Part shown: one piece after another, positions 2,176 through 40,698 of the stretch | Layout of the letters: every line of letters starts with the position of its first letter | Numbering within the stretch: the stretch's first letter is position 1 | DNA from: Bacteroidaceae bacterium HV4-6-C5C | GTDB lineage: Bacteria; Bacteroidota; Bacteroidia; Bacteroidales; Bacteroidaceae | Assembly: GCA_007896885.1 (NCBI GenBank) | Contig: VOIU01000008.1 | Coordinates: forward strand, 62,001 to 126,000 | Length of the DNA: 64,000 bases | Reading direction: 5' to 3' | Made by a program: the position numbers and the translations under genes | Notes under the pieces: model-generated | Database searches by the model: none | What the model was told of the DNA's origin: nothing | What the model saw: only the letters and a program-made list of their open reading frames with translations

Positions 2176-3171
2176 TTAGCTGTTGATCTCGATGAACTTC
2201 TTTAAGGTGGATAATGCACGTCCGCTATCGAGCGATTCGCGTGCAATGGCTATACACTCTTCAATACTCTTGTCGGGCTCCATCACCTGAATGGCAAAGG
2301 CCGCATTGACTATAACACACTGGGTTTGGGCAGGAGTGGCTTGTGAGTTGAGGATATTATCGAATATTTTAGCGGCATCTTCTTTACAAGCTCCACCAAA
2401 AAGCTCTTCGGGACGGGCTGCTTTGAAACCAAGATCTTGTGGACGGTAGATGTGCTCGTAATGGCGGGTCATCACTTTGAATTCATCCGTCAGAGATATT
2501 TCGTCGTAGCTGTCGAGGCTGTTTACTACCGCAAAATCAATACCTAATTTATAGAATACATTGGTGTAAAGACGCATTTGCGCAAGGTCGGCAACGCCCA
2601 GTAACTGGTATGTCGGTTTACATGGGTTGACTAAGGGGCCAAGTAGATTGAAGATGGTGCGTATCTTCAAGGCTTTGCGCACCGGACCGACAAACTTCAT
2701 GGCAGGATTGAACAATTGGGCATGAAGGTAGGCGATGTTGCACTCTTCTATGCTTCGCTTCAATGTGTCCGTGTTGTTGGTGAAACGGACTCCATGCTGC
2801 TCTATCACATTGCTGGCTCCACTTACGGATGTCGCACCGTAATTGCCGTGCTTTGCCACTTTGTAGCCCGCGCCGGCAACGATGAAACAGGCGCATGTGG
2901 AAATGTTGAAGGTGTTTTTTCCATCGCCACCCGTGCCGACAATATCTATGGGGCGATAAGGCGAAAAGTCCACCGGTATACGGGTTGTCATGAGAGCTTC
3001 ACGGAAACCGATAAGTTCGTCTACCGTGATACCTCGCATTTGAAATGCCGTAAGCATAGCGGCGATCTGTGCTTCGGGGTACATCTCTTTGGTGATGTTA
3101 AGGAGGAGGTCTTTAGTTTCCTCCGATGTCAGCTCTTCATGATTGAAGAGTCTGCTTAATATTGCTTTCAT
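2176..3171 (-). CDS. trpD: Anthranilate phosphoribosyltransferase
   Basis: Transfers the phosphoribosyl group of PRPP to anthranilate, step two of the tryptophan branch. The protein has the glycine-rich PRPP loop GTGGDGKNTFNIST (79-92) and the KHGNYGATSVSGASNVIE anthranilate/PRPP motif. I chose the ATG at 3169-3171, which gives 331 residues, the family's usual size, and the typical MKxILxxLF start. The frame is open 70 codons further upstream to 3381, but that stretch is a 22-bp repeat array and encodes no TrpD-like sequence. The gene is a separate polypeptide from trpG here, unlike the TrpG-TrpD fusions of enterics. In-frame reading past the stop stays open for 33 codons. Confidence 0.96.
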   Translation of the reverse strand: MKAILSRLFNHEELTSEETKDLLLNITKEMYPEAQIAAMLTAFQMRGITVDELIGFREALMTTRIPVDFSPYRPIDIVGTGGDGKNTFNISTCACFIVAGAGYKVAKHGNYGATSVSGASNVIEQHGVRFTNNTDTLKRSIEECNIAYLHAQLFNPAMKFVGPVRKALKIRTIFNLLGPLVNPCKPTYQLLGVADLAQMRLYTNVFYKLGIDFAVVNSLDSYDEISLTDEFKVMTRHYEHIYRPQDLGFKAARPEELFGGACKEDAAKIFDNILNSQATPAQTQCVIVNAAFAIQVMEPDKSIEECIAIARESLDSGRALSTLKKFIEINS

Positions 3172-3208
3172 ATTGCATTGTTTTTGTTTTAATCTCGCTT
3201 GGTAAATG

Positions 3209-3406
3209 TCTTTTTCCTTATAAGATATCCGGGTTCCTTTAGTATGGAATCCTAATTTCTTCGGTAAGGAACCGAAATTTCCATAATAGGAAACAGATGA
3301 TCTCTTTGCCGAAAACAGATGGTCTGTTGGACTCAAATACATGGTCTGTTTGCATGAAACAGATAGTCTGTTAGTACCCAACAGATGGTCTGTTGACCGG
3401 AAGTGC
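3209..3406. repeat. 22-bp-period array of imperfect palindromes, array A (trpG-trpD spacer)
   Basis: Five 15-bp units begin at 3292, 3314, 3336, 3358 and 3380, exactly 22 bp apart. Two are identical (AACAGATGGTCTGTT at 3314 and 3380); the others differ at one to three positions (AACAGATGATCTCTT, AATACATGGTCTGTT, AACAGATAGTCTGTT). Each is a pair of 6-bp inverted arms around a 3-bp centre, and the 7-bp spacers are unrelated. Upstream the same 22-bp phase continues in degenerate form to about 3209, where the arms become GGAA/TTCC-like (GGAACCGAAATTTCC at 3268). The array fills almost the whole trpG-trpD spacer and is transcribed within the trp operon. The same unit recurs after carB at 40596-40698. 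Confidence 0.9.
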
Positions 3407-3412
3407 CTTTTC

Positions 3413-3994
3413 TTAATGGAACAGCCAGTTCTGCATGATCAGTTTTCCGTCCGGTGTAAGTACCGATTCCGGATGAAACTGTATGCCATGAATGTCATAT
3501 TCCCGGTGCTTTAAAGCCATGATTTGCCCTTCGGCACTTACGGCGGTAATAGCCAGGCATTGCGGTAGACCGTCGGTGTTGACTACCCAGGAATGATACC
3601 GACCAACCTGAATTTCCGAAGGGAGAGCGTTAAAGATATAGTCGGTCTCCAAATCCCGCGAACCGTTTGCCAAATATGCCGGAGTCTGCACACCATGGAA
3701 TACATCGCTCAAATTAGTCAGCTTGCTTCCGAATGCCTGTCCTATGGCTTGTTCGCCCAAGCAGACTCCAAGCATTGGCTTACGTCCTGCATAGGTGCGT
3801 ATCACGTCCAGTAAGAGTCCGGCTTCTTTAGGAATACCGGGGCCCGGCGAAAGCACAATCTTATCATACACCTCCAGTTCCTCAAGTGAAAACTGGTCGT
3901 TGCGGAGTACATCCACTTCTACACCCAGCTCTTTAATGAGGTGAGCCAGATTGTAAGTGAACGAGTCGTAGTTATCTATAATGACGATTTTCAT
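3413..3994 (-). CDS. trpG: Anthranilate synthase component II (glutamine amidotransferase)
   Basis: Hydrolyses glutamine and channels ammonia to TrpE for anthranilate formation. It is a class I amidotransferase of 193 residues with an LSPGPG oxyanion segment (49-53), the nucleophile Cys78 in GVCLGEQ, and His174/Glu176 in IQFHPES. The full catalytic triad is present, so it should be active. It sits 16 bp downstream of trpE, consistent with a TrpE-TrpG complex. PabA-type activity in folate synthesis is also possible for proteins of this kind, but the operon position makes anthranilate synthase the main role. Confidence 0.96.
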   Translation of the reverse strand: MKIVIIDNYDSFTYNLAHLIKELGVEVDVLRNDQFSLEELEVYDKIVLSPGPGIPKEAGLLLDVIRTYAGRKPMLGVCLGEQAIGQAFGSKLTNLSDVFHGVQTPAYLANGSRDLETDYIFNALPSEIQVGRYHSWVVNTDGLPQCLAITAVSAEGQIMALKHREYDIHGIQFHPESVLTPDGKLIMQNWLFH

Positions 3995-4010: not shown

Positions 4011-5411
4011 TTACATCTTTTCTGCCATGACAATAGCTGTTTTTAATGCTCCCAGCTTATTGTTAACTTCTTGAAGTTCGTATTCTTCATTACTCTTTGC
4101 CACAATACCCCCACCGGCTTGAAACCAAAGTACCCCGTTACGGCTGACAAATGTGCGGATAGTAATAGCTTGGTTTAGGTTGCCATTCAATCCGATGAAC
4201 CCTATGCACCCGCCATACGCACCCCGGTTGTGAGGCTCAAGCTCACTGATCAGTTGCATGGCACGGACTTTCGGTGCTCCGCTTAGCGTACCGGCGGGGA
4301 AGGTGTCGATAAAAGCCTTTATGGGATCGGCTTCTTTATTTAACGTACCGCTGACCCGACTTACCAGATGAATGACGTGGCTGTAATATTGCATCTCTTT
4401 ATAAAAGTCCACTTTCACCCCACTACAGTTGCGCGATAAGTCATTACGGGCCAGATCGACCAGCATAACATGTTCTGCATTCTCCTTTGGATCATCATGT
4501 AAGTATTGCGCATTCACTGCATCTTGGGCGGGGTCACCTGTCCGACGAGTGGTTCCTGCGATAGGATCGATATAAGCATGACCACCTTCAATGCGGCAAT
4601 GTGTTTCGGGGGAAGAACCGAAGATGCGGAAACCTCCGAAATCAAAGTAAAATAAGTACGGAGAAGGGTTGATGCTACGCAGTGCGCGGTAAAGCTTGAA
4701 GTCATCACCGACATAGCGTTGTTCAAAACGCCTTGAAAGAACGATCTGGAAAACATCACCCCGCATGCAGTGGGCTATGCCTTTGCGGATATTCTCTTTA
4801 TGCTGTTCATCGGTCAGTGAGGAGGTAGTGTTGCCCACCGCATGAAAATCGTATACGGTGTAGTTGCGGTTATGGATTGCCTTTTGAACCGTATCAAGTC
4901 CACTTGTTTCGCCTTCGCCAAGCATTTCGAGCATCATCATCTCATTTCTGAAATCATTGAAGATAATCAGATAACGGTATAATATATAGAGCATGTCGGG
5001 GGCATCATTGGTGCTTTCGCGACTGTCTTTTACGGGAATGTCTTCGAAATAGCGTACAGCATTGAATGAGGTATATCCATACAATCCGCAATAGTTGGAG
5101 TACTCACCGGTTACATTGAAGCGGGAAAGGAAATCATGTAAGGCATTCTCCACGCGGTATTCAGAAGTAATGGCATGCTCTTCGCGGCTACCGTCGGGCA
5201 AGCTGAATATGGCTGTGCCATGATCGACACTGACACTTGCCACGGGACAAAGACCGATGAATGAACGGTTGTTTTCACTCCCGTGATAGTCCGAGCTCTC
5301 CATGAGGGCACTTTGCGGGAAGATGTCGCGCACTTTCAGATAAGTGCTTACCGGAGTATGGAGATCGCCCAATACTTTGCGACTGATGGTTTGGTAATGA
5401 TATTGTTTCAT
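4011..5411 (-). CDS. trpE: Anthranilate synthase component I
   Basis: Makes anthranilate from chorismate using ammonia supplied by TrpG, the committed and feedback-inhibited step. The 466 residues carry the chorismate-binding features GDVFQIVLSRRF, GSSPETH, PIAGTTRR, ENAEHVMLVDLARND, GTLSGAPKVRAM and the C-terminal GGIVAKS. An N-terminal LMES segment (SALMESSDYHG) corresponds to the LLES motif of the tryptophan inhibitor site, so feedback control is probably retained. It starts 67 bp after the trpB stop. PabB is an alternative family reading, but the LMES motif and operon favour TrpE. Confidence 0.96.
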   Translation of the reverse strand: MKQYHYQTISRKVLGDLHTPVSTYLKVRDIFPQSALMESSDYHGSENNRSFIGLCPVASVSVDHGTAIFSLPDGSREEHAITSEYRVENALHDFLSRFNVTGEYSNYCGLYGYTSFNAVRYFEDIPVKDSRESTNDAPDMLYILYRYLIIFNDFRNEMMMLEMLGEGETSGLDTVQKAIHNRNYTVYDFHAVGNTTSSLTDEQHKENIRKGIAHCMRGDVFQIVLSRRFEQRYVGDDFKLYRALRSINPSPYLFYFDFGGFRIFGSSPETHCRIEGGHAYIDPIAGTTRRTGDPAQDAVNAQYLHDDPKENAEHVMLVDLARNDLSRNCSGVKVDFYKEMQYYSHVIHLVSRVSGTLNKEADPIKAFIDTFPAGTLSGAPKVRAMQLISELEPHNRGAYGGCIGFIGLNGNLNQAITIRTFVSRNGVLWFQAGGGIVAKSNEEYELQEVNNKLGALKTAIVMAEKM

Positions 5412-6789: not shown

Positions 6790-6829
6790 AAGAAAGAGCC
6801 CTGTCGCAGGTGCGACAGGGCTCTTTCTT
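6790..6829 (-). terminator. trp attenuator terminator hairpin
   Basis: Perfect 19-bp inverted repeat (arms 6790-6808 and 6811-6829) with a GC-rich core reading GAGCCCTGTCGCA on the transcribed strand and ending in a U-rich run. It stands between the trp leader peptide and trpB, where a rho-independent attenuator terminator is expected. The symmetry is exact; its role is inferred from position and the Trp-rich leader. Confidence 0.9.
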
Positions 6830-6904
6830 ATTTTATGTAATCATCTATCTAGTATGTATACACGAGCGCTGCTCCCTTACGACTGTAGGAGTTGTAACGG
6901 CGCC
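6816..6904 (-). promoter_or_regulatory. Alternative base-pairing segments of the trp attenuator
   Basis: On the transcribed strand the Trp codons run straight into GGCGCC (6899-6904). Downstream, CAGCGCTC (6864-6871) can pair partly with that segment (five pairs, one G-U), or with GAGCCCTG (6816-6823 region) of the terminator hairpin at seven of eight positions. Stalling on the Trp codons would cover the first segment and free the second to disrupt the terminator. I paired this by eye; a folding calculation of both states is needed. Confidence 0.5.
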
Positions 6905-6938
6905 ACCACCAATATGTATTTACTAATATAGTTCTCAT
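6849..6938 (-). CDS. trpL: trp operon leader peptide with three tandem Trp codons
   Basis: A 29-codon frame from the ATG at 6936-6938 to a TAG at 6849-6851. Residues 10-12 are Trp-Trp-Trp, encoded by TGG TGG TGG at 6903-6911. A peptide this short with three consecutive codons for the rarest amino acid, between the operon promoter and a strong terminator hairpin, is the signature of ribosome-mediated attenuation. When charged tRNA-Trp is scarce the ribosome would stall here and allow transcription into trpB. The peptide itself probably has no further function. The ATG is preceded by an A-rich stretch, not a strong Shine-Dalgarno, as is common in Bacteroidota. Confidence 0.9.
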   Translation of the reverse strand: MRTILVNTYWWWRRYNSYSRKGAALVYTY

Positions 6939-6961
6939 TTCTATTTTTGTTTTTCTGTGGG

Positions 6962-23344: not shown

Positions 23345-23532
23345 TAGGCATTGTTATAATGCCATTTGGCTATGGGCTACTATTTATTTATCCATTGGTT
23401 GTTTGCCATCTAGATGCCAGCTAAAGCCTGTTTATCCATTGGCTATTGATCATTTAGCCACTGGCTCCGGCTTGTTTACCCATTGGCTACATTGCATCTA
23501 GCTACCAGCTATTACAGCCTTACCTACCAGCT
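23345..23532. repeat. 22-bp-period array of imperfect palindromes, array C
   Basis: Twelve-base cores recur at 23367, 23389, 23411, 23433, 23455, 23477, 23499 and 23521, always 22 bp apart, with a degenerate extra unit at 23345. Examples are TATCCATTGGCT (23433), TAGCCACTGGCT (23455), TACCCATTGGCT (23477) and TAGCTACCAGCT (23499). Each approximates two 5-bp inverted arms around a 3-bp centre. The arms change together (TAGCC with GGCTA, TAGCT with AGCTA), so the symmetry is kept while the sequence drifts. The array fills much of a 783-bp non-coding region between the SusC/D operon and asnB. Confidence 0.85.
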
Positions 23533-37360: not shown

Positions 37361-40300
37361 ATGAAAGAAAACAATATAAAGAAAGTCCTGTTGCTTGGTT
37401 CGGGCGCACTGAAGATCGGTGAAGCCGGTGAGTTCGACTATTCCGGATCGCAGGCACTTAAAGCGTTGAAAGAGGAAGGTATACATACCATACTTATCAA
37501 CCCTAACATTGCTACCGTACAGACTTCAGAGGGAGTTGCCGATCAGATTTATTTTCTTCCGGTTACTCCTTATTTTGTAGAAAAGGTAATAGAGAAAGAA
37601 CGCCCCGAAGGTATCATGTTGGCTTTTGGTGGACAGACTGCTTTAAACTGTGGCGTAGCACTTTACAAAGAAGGCATTCTTGAAAAATACAACTTAAAAG
37701 TTTTGGGTACTCCGGTTCAAGCCATTATCGATACCGAGGATCGTGAGCTTTTTGTGAGAAAGCTAAATGAGATCGATGTCAAAACCATAAAGAGTGAAGC
37801 CGTAGAGAACGCTATTGATGCACGTCGTGCTGCTGCACAGCTGGGCTATCCGGTTATTGTGCGTGCTGCTTATGCATTGGGTGGTCTCGGTTCGGGTTTT
37901 TGTGATAATGAGCAGGAACTTGATGTGCTGGTTGAAAAAGCCTTCTCTTTCTCTCCCCAGGTACTTGTGGAAAAATCATTGCGCGGATGGAAAGAAGTGG
38001 AGTATGAAGTTGTTCGCGACCGATTCGATAATTGCATCACGGTTTGTAATATGGAAAACTTCGACCCGCTGGGTATTCATACTGGAGAGTCAATCGTAAT
38101 AGCACCCAGTCAGACTCTGACTAACACTGATTATCATAAATTGCGCGAGCTTGCCATTCGCATTATCCGTCATATCGGAATTGTTGGTGAATGTAATGTT
38201 CAGTATGCTTATGATCCTGAAAGTGAAGATTATAGAGTGATTGAAGTAAATGCACGCTTGAGCCGATCTTCAGCTCTGGCATCCAAGGCTACAGGTTATC
38301 CGTTGGCATTTGTTGCGGCGAAGTTGGGCTTGGGATATGGTTTGTTTGATCTGAAAAACTCGGTAACAAAAACTACCAGTGCTTTCTTCGAACCGGCGTT
38401 GGACTATGTAGTCTGCAAGATACCTCGTTGGGACTTGGGTAAGTTCCATGGCGTAGATAAAGAACTGGGTTCTTCAATGAAATCCGTTGGTGAAGTTATG
38501 GCTATCGGACGTACATTTGAAGAAGCAATTCAGAAAGGTCTTCGTATGATAGGTCAGGGTATGCACGGCTTCGTTGAGAATAAAGAACTGGTCATTCCCG
38601 ATATTGACAAAGCGCTGCGTGAACCGACTGATAAACGAATTTTTGTGATATCCGAAGCTTTCCGTGCCGGATATACCGTTGATCAGATACATGAGTTGAC
38701 CAAGATTGACCGTTGGTTTCTCGATAAACTGATGAATATTACCAAAACAGCTAAAGAGCTGGAACAATGGGGTAATAATCATAAGCAGATTGTGGATATG
38801 CCTAAAGAGCTTCTAAAAATGGCTAAGGTGCAAGGATATTCCGATTTTCAGATTGCTCGTGCCATCGGTTACGAGGGGGATATAGAAGATGGAATTCTTT
38901 ATGTACGCAACCATCGTAAGAGCGTAGGCATTGTCCCTGTAGTGAAGCAAATAGATACATTGGCTGCCGAATATCCGGCTCAGACCAATTACTTATATCT
39001 GACTTATAGCGGTACATCAAATGATGTGCATTATCTAGGTGACCATCGCTCAATTGTCGTTCTCGGTTCGGGCGCATACCGTATCGGCTCGAGTGTGGAA
39101 TTTGACTGGTGCGGTGTTCAGGCATTGAATACCATACGTAAGGAAGGTTACCGCAGTGTCATGATCAATTATAACCCGGAGACTGTTTCCACCGACTATG
39201 ATATGTGCGACCGTCTTTACTTTGACGAGTTGACTTTTGAACGTGTAATGGATATTCTCGAACTGGAAAATCCTCACGGTGTTATTGTCTCTACTGGTGG
39301 TCAGATACCGAATAATCTAGCTCTTCGTCTTGATGCGCAAGATATTCCTATTCTCGGGACAACGGCCCAAAGTATTGATAATGCTGAAGACCGTGAAAAA
39401 TTCTCGGCTATGCTCGACCGTATCGGAGTGGATCAACCCCGTTGGAGAGAGCTTACATCAATGGAAGATATCAACGGCTTTGTGGAAGAAGTCGGATTCC
39501 CTGTATTGGTTCGTCCTTCTTACGTATTGTCCGGTGCGGCAATGAATGTCTGCTCCAACCAGGAAGAGCTGGAACGCTTCTTGCAGCTTGCAGCTAACGT
39601 ATCCAAAAAACATCCGGTTGTTGTAAGTCAGTTCATCGAACATGCTAAAGAGGTAGAGATGGATGCCGTAGCACAAAACGGTGAAATCGTAGCGTATGCC
39701 ATTTCCGAGCACATCGAGTTTGCCGGGGTACACTCCGGAGACGCTACCATACAGTTCCCACCGCAAAAACTTTATGTGGAAACCGTACGCCGCATTAAAC
39801 GTATCAGTCGTGAAATTGCCCGTGAATTGAACATCTCAGGGCCATTCAATATCCAATATCTGGCTCGTGAAAACGACATCAAGGTAATTGAATGTAATCT
39901 GCGTGCCAGCCGTTCATTCCCCTTTGTCAGCAAGGTGTTGAAGATTAATTTCATCGAATTGGCTACCAAGGTAATGCTTGGTTTGCCAGTGGAACGCCCC
40001 AGCAAGAACTTGTTTGAATTGGATTATGTAGGTATCAAAGCCAGCCAGTTCTCTTTCAATCGTCTGCAGAAGGCCGACCCTGTGCTTGGAGTGGATATGG
40101 CATCTACCGGTGAAGTTGGTTGTATTGCTTCCGATACTTCTGCTGCCATTCTGAAAGCAATGCTTTCTGTCGGTTACCGCATACCGAAGAAGAACATCCT
40201 TCTATCTACCGGTACTCCGAAACAAAAAGTGGATATGCTTGGCGCAGCGCGTATGTTGCAGGAGAAAGGTTATAAACTCTTTGCAACCGGAGGTACTTCA

Positions 40301-40591
40301 AAATTCCTGACCGACAATGGAGTTGAGAATACCCGCGTATACTGGCCTAGTGAGACAGAGCATCCACAAGCTTTGGATATGCTTCACAATAGGGAAATTG
40401 ATATGGTAGTAAACATCCCCAAAAACCTTACGGCAGGGGAGTTGGACAACGGTTATAAGATCCGTCGTGCCGCTATCGACCTCAATGTTCCATTGATTAC
40501 CAACGGACGTTTGGCTAGTGCTTTCATCAATGCATTCTGCACGATGACACTTGATGATTTGGCTATAAAGAGTTGGGAAGAATATAAATAG
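37361..40591 (+). CDS. carB: Carbamoyl phosphate synthetase large subunit
   Basis: The 1076-residue synthetase contains two homologous ATP-grasp halves. The first begins with KVLLLGSGALKIGEAGEFDYSGSQALKAL-type sequence (here read at residues 8-36), and the second begins near 565 with VVLGSGAYRIGSSVEFDWCGV. The C-terminal MGS-like allosteric domain includes KGYKLFATGGTSKFL. In the first half the usual PIVIGQ is LKIGEA, a Bacteroidota-type variation. The TAG stop is at 40589-40591, only 4 bp before a 22-bp repeat array whose last two units form its terminator. Confidence 0.97.
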   Translation: MKENNIKKVLLLGSGALKIGEAGEFDYSGSQALKALKEEGIHTILINPNIATVQTSEGVADQIYFLPVTPYFVEKVIEKERPEGIMLAFGGQTALNCGVALYKEGILEKYNLKVLGTPVQAIIDTEDRELFVRKLNEIDVKTIKSEAVENAIDARRAAAQLGYPVIVRAAYALGGLGSGFCDNEQELDVLVEKAFSFSPQVLVEKSLRGWKEVEYEVVRDRFDNCITVCNMENFDPLGIHTGESIVIAPSQTLTNTDYHKLRELAIRIIRHIGIVGECNVQYAYDPESEDYRVIEVNARLSRSSALASKATGYPLAFVAAKLGLGYGLFDLKNSVTKTTSAFFEPALDYVVCKIPRWDLGKFHGVDKELGSSMKSVGEVMAIGRTFEEAIQKGLRMIGQGMHGFVENKELVIPDIDKALREPTDKRIFVISEAFRAGYTVDQIHELTKIDRWFLDKLMNITKTAKELEQWGNNHKQIVDMPKELLKMAKVQGYSDFQIARAIGYEGDIEDGILYVRNHRKSVGIVPVVKQIDTLAAEYPAQTNYLYLTYSGTSNDVHYLGDHRSIVVLGSGAYRIGSSVEFDWCGVQALNTIRKEGYRSVMINYNPETVSTDYDMCDRLYFDELTFERVMDILELENPHGVIVSTGGQIPNNLALRLDAQDIPILGTTAQSIDNAEDREKFSAMLDRIGVDQPRWRELTSMEDINGFVEEVGFPVLVRPSYVLSGAAMNVCSNQEELERFLQLAANVSKKHPVVVSQFIEHAKEVEMDAVAQNGEIVAYAISEHIEFAGVHSGDATIQFPPQKLYVETVRRIKRISREIARELNISGPFNIQYLARENDIKVIECNLRASRSFPFVSKVLKINFIELATKVMLGLPVERPSKNLFELDYVGIKASQFSFNRLQKADPVLGVDMASTGEVGCIASDTSAAILKAMLSVGYRIPKKNILLSTGTPKQKVDMLGAARMLQEKGYKLFATGGTSKFLTDNGVENTRVYWPSETEHPQALDMLHNREIDMVVNIPKNLTAGELDNGYKIRRAAIDLNVPLITNGRLASAFINAFCTMTLDDLAIKSWEEYK

Positions 40592-40595
40592 TAAA

Positions 40596-40698
40596 AACAG
40601 ATGGTCTGTTGCATGCAAACAGACCATCTGTTCGATATAAAGAGACCATCTGTTGACCCCAAAGAGACTATCTGTTTAGGGACAACAGACGGTCTCTT
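40596..40698. repeat. 22-bp-period array of imperfect palindromes, array B (after carB)
   Basis: Five 15-bp units start at 40596, 40618, 40640, 40662 and 40684, exactly 22 bp apart: AACAGATGGTCTGTT, AACAGACCATCTGTT, AAGAGACCATCTGTT, AAGAGACTATCTGTT and AACAGACGGTCTCTT. The first is identical to units of array A in the trp operon 37 kb away. The 7-bp spacers are unrelated. Unit 2 is the exact reverse complement of unit 1, so the transcript can form a 15-bp hairpin with a 7-nt loop. Units 4 and 5 pair similarly. The array starts 4 bp after the carB stop. Confidence 0.92.

Follow-up and report, generated by a model that had tools for sequence, protein, structure and literature searches.

What is a row of palindromes with an exact 22-bp step doing between trpG and trpD of Bacteroidaceae bacterium HV4-6-C5C, and does it belong to the trp operon at all? 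We addressed this question in a window of 64,000 nucleotides (the whole stretch of DNA analysed), in the rest of its genome and in related genomes.

A palindrome array in the trpG-trpD gap

Array A (3292..3394) consists of five 15-bp palindromic units on a 22-bp step. Units A2 (3314..3328) and A5 (3380..3394) both read AACAGATGGTCTGTT, which is the consensus; A1 (AACAGATGATCTCTT, 3292..3306) carries one arm mismatch, and A3 (AATACATGGTCTGTT, 3336..3350) carries two, with a 5′ arm, AATACA, that fits the class AAYRSA. The unit starts at 3292, 3314, 3336, 3358 and 3380 and their constant phase were exactly as the initial annotation had placed them; the two perfect copies that it recognized are the units at 3314 and 3380, and A4 (AACAGATAGTCTGTT, 3358..3372) turned out to have perfect arms too. 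TRF reported a period of 22 with 4.7 copies. A sequence-blind scan, which summed palindromic pairs over five units at every constant step of 16–40 bp across the whole 64-kb window, gave array A the top score (period 22, start 3292, 27 of 30 pairs), compared with 21 for the best period other than 22 and at most 23 in 40 shuffles at all periods. The autocorrelation test that had been proposed gave 0.66 at 22 bp for the array core, against 0.47 or less in 5000 shuffles. Together, these results confirmed that array A is real and far above chance.

The 22-bp period continued on the trpD side of the array, with an autocorrelation of 0.486 at lag 22 in the stretch 3200–3291 (family-wise p 0.003). This stretch had been described as the same array with drifting arms, extending to about 3209. 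The period held up, but the arms had not drifted: autocorrelation and the palindrome list revealed about four copies of a different palindrome, TTYC..GGAA, with a centre of its own (3204..3291; for example at 3234–3249 and 3278–3293). Elsewhere in the window, a sequence-blind period scan also detected a weak 22-bp periodic stretch at 23390–23500, with CCAYTGG palindromes near 23437, 23459 and 23481.

Array A lies 18 bp from the stop codon of trpG (3413..3994, minus strand; TIGR00566, 188 bits, cut-off 121) and is followed in the operon by trpD (2176..3171, minus strand; TIGR01245, 308 bits, cut-off 199; start set by comparison). The open reading frame reported as fused to trpD is indeed open into that gene, although trpD normally begins at the ATG at 3171, and 22 is not divisible by 3; a coding function was rejected because of this period and of the intergenic placement. 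The suggestion that a series of near-hairpins precedes trpD in the mRNA fared poorly, since the sense RNA of array A folded only 1.6 s.d. better than its shuffles; the RNA of the whole trpG-trpD gap folded 2.8 s.d. better. No T-run was found at array A, nor a terminator hairpin followed by a T-run after the gene. Searching the window with Rfam covariance models returned a single match, the Bacteroid-trp leader RNA (RF01692, 87 bits; 6814..6958, minus strand), which is the known attenuator of the trp operon and is located upstream of trpB, 3.4 kb from the array.

The description of the array as lying inside the trp operon was correct as to the gap, but this location appeared incidental, because array A is one of 20 dispersed arrays in its genome and relatives lack it there: no AAYRSA-NNN-TSYRTT array was detected in the trpG-trpD gap of 80 named relatives and 20 array-bearing genomes, wherever this gap was readable. 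Dispersal, absence from the gap in relatives and the separate position of the known trp leader led us to reject trp-specific regulation. Array A is private to its lineage, sits mid-operon and has no terminator features. It may be a lineage-specific copy that at most mildly tunes trpD-trpC-trpF expression, or a neutral landing.

Geometry, dialects and distribution of the arrays

The HV4-6-C5C genome contains 20 arrays of array A's unit, of which 13 have four units and 7 have five, although a few may be missed by the pattern searches that gathered them. All were exactly on the 22-bp step and all were intergenic. Their spacers were unrelated, and so were their flanks, except for one 450-bp repeat present in three copies. 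The three copies of this repeat (~340–460 bp, 82–87% identical) each carry an array (L071 2757–3094, L072 2638–2978 and L074 2690–3031). The window holds a second array of this family, the five-unit array B (40596..40698), which begins 4 bp after the stop codon of the upstream carB gene (carbamoyl-phosphate synthase large subunit; 37598..40591, plus strand, 3′ part read; TIGR01369, 1411 bits). The RNA of array B was predicted to form a 15-bp hairpin from units 1 and 2 and then a longer hairpin that is closed by pairing of units 3 and 5 and followed by a T-rich tail (folding z −9.9). Array B looks like a gene-end element with a terminator.

Of 95 Bacteroides genomes, almost all of them 90% complete or better, 40 matched degenerate two- and three-unit patterns of the class AAYRSA-NNN-TSYRTT, compared with 3 among 303 genomes that represent 21 further genera of the family; a reversed control pattern gave almost no matches. 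The consensus 13-mer was present in 25/159 genomes of the genus Bacteroides, and there are hundreds of such arrays across the genus. The phase modulo 22 was kept by 467 of 468 units (119 arrays, 16 genomes). Although 22-bp patterns had been used to find these loci, nothing tied the additional units of an array to the step, and they did not depart from it. The spacers were largely uninformative, except that T was favoured at their first position and A at their last. Fixed spacing had originally been taken to argue for selection on spacing or for arm-and-loop duplication. The phase data strengthened the former considerably, whereas duplication fits a few arrays with copied spacers, such as L192, and not the many with unrelated ones. 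Tandem slippage alone was rejected on the same ground of unrelated spacers, even though some arrays have copied ones. L192 (2979–3367) is an 18-unit array in which two alternating spacers represent 44-bp duplications, and its ortholog L178 has two units. In genome G010, a segment several kb long is present three times (L157, L158 and L162) at more than 97% identity, with the same array in each copy.

The centres of the units followed species-specific dialects. CCA/TGG centres prevailed in HV4-6-C5C (64/81 or more units), TCA/TGA centres in G010 and G016, and GGC/GCC-like centres in another group (for example, G004 and G014); the dialects were compared only for genomes collected with open centres, as collection of some loci via the 13-mer is biased to CCA/TGG. 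Orthologous arrays spanned the dialect change: L293, a four-unit array that has GGC/CGC/GGC/GCC centres as well as a T-run, has its counterparts L160, L184 and L189 in three species that use the other dialect, and L301 is orthologous to L199, L223, L231 and L248 across such a change. Beyond close species, an array matched its genome-mates at 12.9 of 15 positions and its ortholog at 12.6 of 15. Orthologous gaps held arrays in up to eight species. The cross-genome comparison suggested in the initial annotation gave a divided answer, in that unit number varied (it was equal in 42% of orthologous pairs) and the period persisted, but arm pairing within units was not kept. Concerted dialects of this kind would be expected from a shared reading factor or from a copying process, and we favour a factor because the spacers are not copied. 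Provirus contigs, several of them ~14 kb long, carry four-unit arrays of the AACAGAGGCTCTGTT dialect (L282–L284, L286, L287 and L290); a viral origin of the arrays was rejected, as one scan of viral contigs turned up nothing but the other dialect, in a few proviruses. An orthologous array was present in the sample for 2 of 21 HV4-6-C5C arrays, as compared to ~35–100% in the other genomes for which at least four arrays were sampled. These mostly private sites suggest that the HV4-6-C5C lineage gained arrays of its own.

Other palindromes were found on the same step. The trpG-trpD gap of several relatives contained a different 22-bp array: B. timonensis and several of the array-bearing genomes had AATGCCACAYYTCATGAGGCCA-like units there, and B. 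clarus and Prevotella had 22-bp arrays of yet other units. For the loci of the 80 named relatives, the TRF period histogram counted 14 rows with a period of 22 and 0 to 3 rows for each of the remaining periods between 19 and 25. Where loci had not been selected for arrays, a period of 22 ranked first in 329 kb from other genera (4 of 9 strict matches) and tied with 23 for first place in 400 kb from Bacteroides (2 of the 5 matches each); 100 kb of E. coli gave no strict match. The sharing of one step by unrelated palindromes is the most surprising part of the analysis, with small numbers behind it. Several individual rows were recorded: unrelated TTAATGCGCATTA and AATCATACGTATGATT palindromes on the 22-bp step in the trpG-trpD gap of the Prevotella group (L102, L117, L118, L133 and L145); a 22-bp row of ACACGAACGTGT palindromes near 4920–5090 in Phocaeicola and B. 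caecigallinarum (L095, L100, L108 and L148); and arrays at L219, L234, L235, L244 and L245 that continue in phase into a TATAGATCG-type repeat, giving two unit types in one 22-bp row, like array A.

Gene ends, terminators and a proposed factor that reads the units

Outside HV4-6-C5C, convergent gaps held 51 of 98 arrays (52%) compared with 28 of the 221 remaining gaps of 50 bp or more at the same loci (13%; p 4e-13). These fractions are approximate, because genes were called simply as ORFs and the classification of a few orthologous loci did not agree. The enrichment was retained with one array per orthologous group (p 2e-7). Divergent gaps accounted for 9 of the 98 arrays and 55 of the 221 other gaps. 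Half of the distances from array to gene 3′ end were 40 bp or less. T-runs were directional: in tandem gaps they occurred on the sense side in 53% and on the other side in 26%, and in convergent gaps they occurred on both sides. A hairpin with a T-run downstream of a gene was found at many array ends in other species, and also at array B. The HV4-6-C5C genome itself showed no convergent enrichment (3 of 20 arrays), had 5 arrays in divergent gaps and few T-runs, and so fits an end-of-gene role poorly.

Base pairing distinguished outer from inner units. At ends with a T-run, the outer pair was complementary at 105 of 118 S positions and formed 13.4 of 15 pairs, compared with 49 of 95 and 11.5 of 15 where the T-run was missing. 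The contrast persisted when each orthologous group contributed a single array (0.82 versus 0.43, p 2e-5). Outer units at T-run ends could form a 15-bp stem with a 7-nt loop, and arrays outside HV4-6-C5C had a mean RNA folding z of −6.6, but the G-U bias expected of RNA stems was weak (74:61 at T-run ends). Judged by sequence, the outer pair with its T-run is a predicted intrinsic terminator. Complementarity at S positions was 136 of 224 for neighbouring inner units and 216 of 358 for the arms within a unit, compared with 0.68 for random units of one genome. Hairpins within units were rejected as a selected feature, their S-position pairing being random, and pairing of neighbouring inner units was likewise rejected as no better than random. 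Pairing is therefore not what keeps the inner units: it does not explain their conservation, the phase of 467/468 units or the concerted dialects of whole arrays.

Taken together, these observations are best explained, with a probability of roughly one half, by a Bacteroides-wide interspersed intergenic family of arrays whose units are read by a putative dimeric factor and mark gene ends, with the outermost pair serving as an intrinsic terminator. Each unit would be the site of one such dimer, and neighbouring units would be bound side by side on one face of the helix, 22 bp being about two DNA turns. Bound arrays would then mark gene ends as boundaries of transcription or topology, and the outermost unit pair would act as an intrinsic terminator, often in both directions. 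The sequences themselves show the rigid spacing, units that are conserved where the spacers are not, dialects that differ between genomes while array positions are kept, a surplus of arrays at 3′ ends and in convergent gaps, and outer-pair stems at T-runs. The existence of other unit families on the 22-bp step, which a single sequence-specific protein does not predict, argues against the factor, and the location of array A within an operon without a T-run, together with the poorly fitting HV4-6-C5C arrays, argues against the gene-end role.

Alternatively, the arrays may be nothing more than intrinsic terminators, in which hairpins in tandem, together with T-runs, stand at the ends of genes and nothing binds the units. 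The 3′-end position, the directional T-runs, the paired outer units at these T-runs and the strong folding of the RNA, including that of array B, are all consistent with this explanation, which we nevertheless consider unlikely: inner units are conserved without pairing, ordinary stems are not one sequence over many loci and do not change dialect jointly, a loop need not be exactly 7 nt each time, and HV4-6-C5C has arrays in divergent and mid-operon gaps. A selfish REP/BIME-like repeat, spread and homogenized by a transposase or by copying, with sites that reflect insertion tolerance near gene ends, is also doubtful. It would account for dispersed intergenic arrays with species-specific dialects, for the mostly private HV4-6-C5C sites, for the copied spacers of some arrays and for the 450-bp repeat that carries an array three times. 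However, spacers are not copied between loci, arrays persist for long at orthologous sites, and the Y1 transposase expected of such elements (the cognate RAYT, PF01797) was absent from HV4-6-C5C and from 14 of 20 other array-bearing genomes in searches with working controls. A RAYT-driven REP was rejected for HV4-6-C5C for lack of this transposase in the genome.

Two further explanations draw on analogy. Sites for an Lrp/AsnC-type octamer, with four to five regular 15-bp semi-palindromes and DNA wrapped round the protein, recall BarR, which binds sites of this kind and appears to wrap DNA around an octamer (PMC10201364), and HV4-6-C5C has three AsnC-type candidate genes; this explanation is quite improbable, since BarR sites are AT-rich at the centre, differently spaced and placed in promoters, while the arrays prefer gene ends. 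Hardly credible is the idea that uptake-signal-like marks were co-opted into terminators, as in Neisseria and Haemophilus. Terminator stems there do share a genome-wide sequence because another function reads it (PMC1852404), but a genome holds ~90 units, compared with the usual 1,000 or more for uptake signals, and rigid 22-bp arrays are foreign to uptake systems.

A broader reading takes account of the unrelated palindromes. It is conceivable, if tentative, that a Bacteroidales-wide system keeps the step fixed and lets the palindrome vary by lineage (AACAGATGGTCTGTT, AACAGAGGCTCTGTT, AATCATACGTATGATT, TTAATGCGCATTA, ACACGAACGTGT and others), a common machine reading or making two-turn palindrome rows whatever their exact sequence and gene-end terminators being one use of them. 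For the favoured reading, a dimeric factor at Bacteroides gene ends, rigid geometry, conserved position and concerted dialects point to a reading factor still to be discovered. The arrays could serve as bait for this factor and, when Bacteroides is engineered genetically, as natural terminators that work in both directions, and they would present a clear case of a factor and its many sites changing together.

Comparison with known systems

No description of these arrays was found in the open literature by searches on repeats, terminators and motif letters; subscription journals fell mostly outside this scope, so that absence there is no proof. Several known systems resemble the arrays in part. 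The arrays differ from CRISPR arrays, in which near-identical repeats of ~21 bp or longer alternate with longer unique spacers beside cas genes, as opposed to 15-bp units with 7-bp spacers at ~20 loci. The BarR operators share the row of four to five regularly spaced 15-bp semipalindromes (PMC10201364), but their spacers are 15–17 bp, their centres AT-rich and their position that of a promoter.

The nearest tandem repeat reported in the order is BrickBuilt, a MITE of Porphyromonas gingivalis, likewise intergenic and built of a short tandem repeat with dyad symmetry (PMC4596501). It differs in step and flanks: its 23-nt bricks sit in a MITE with leader and tail, whereas the arrays have unrelated spacers and mostly no shared flanks, the exceptions being the three copies of the 450-bp repeat and the triplicated G010 segment.

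REP/BIME elements, for which roles in protein binding and transcription termination have been suggested, are also dispersed intergenic palindromic units in regularly spaced clusters of species-specific sequence (PMC2817692), and all 20 HV4-6-C5C arrays are dispersed, intergenic and clustered in this way. The arrays differ in their 15-bp unit, their constant 22-bp step, their four to five units as a rule and their total of ~90 units, not hundreds. The GTAG/GTGG tetranucleotide that marks REP beside the palindrome was not found next to the unit consensus AACAGATGGTCTGTT, where the spacers carry little information. The uptake-sequence terminators of Neisseria and Pasteurellaceae are similar in placing at gene ends a hairpin with a T-run whose stem is two inverted copies of one genome-wide sequence (PMC1852404). 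In the arrays, by comparison, the pair belongs to a longer row of units in phase, the majority of which do not pair, and the sequence is rare in the genome. By the features tested, the arrays would thus work like BIMEs and uptake-sequence terminators but are not members of either class.
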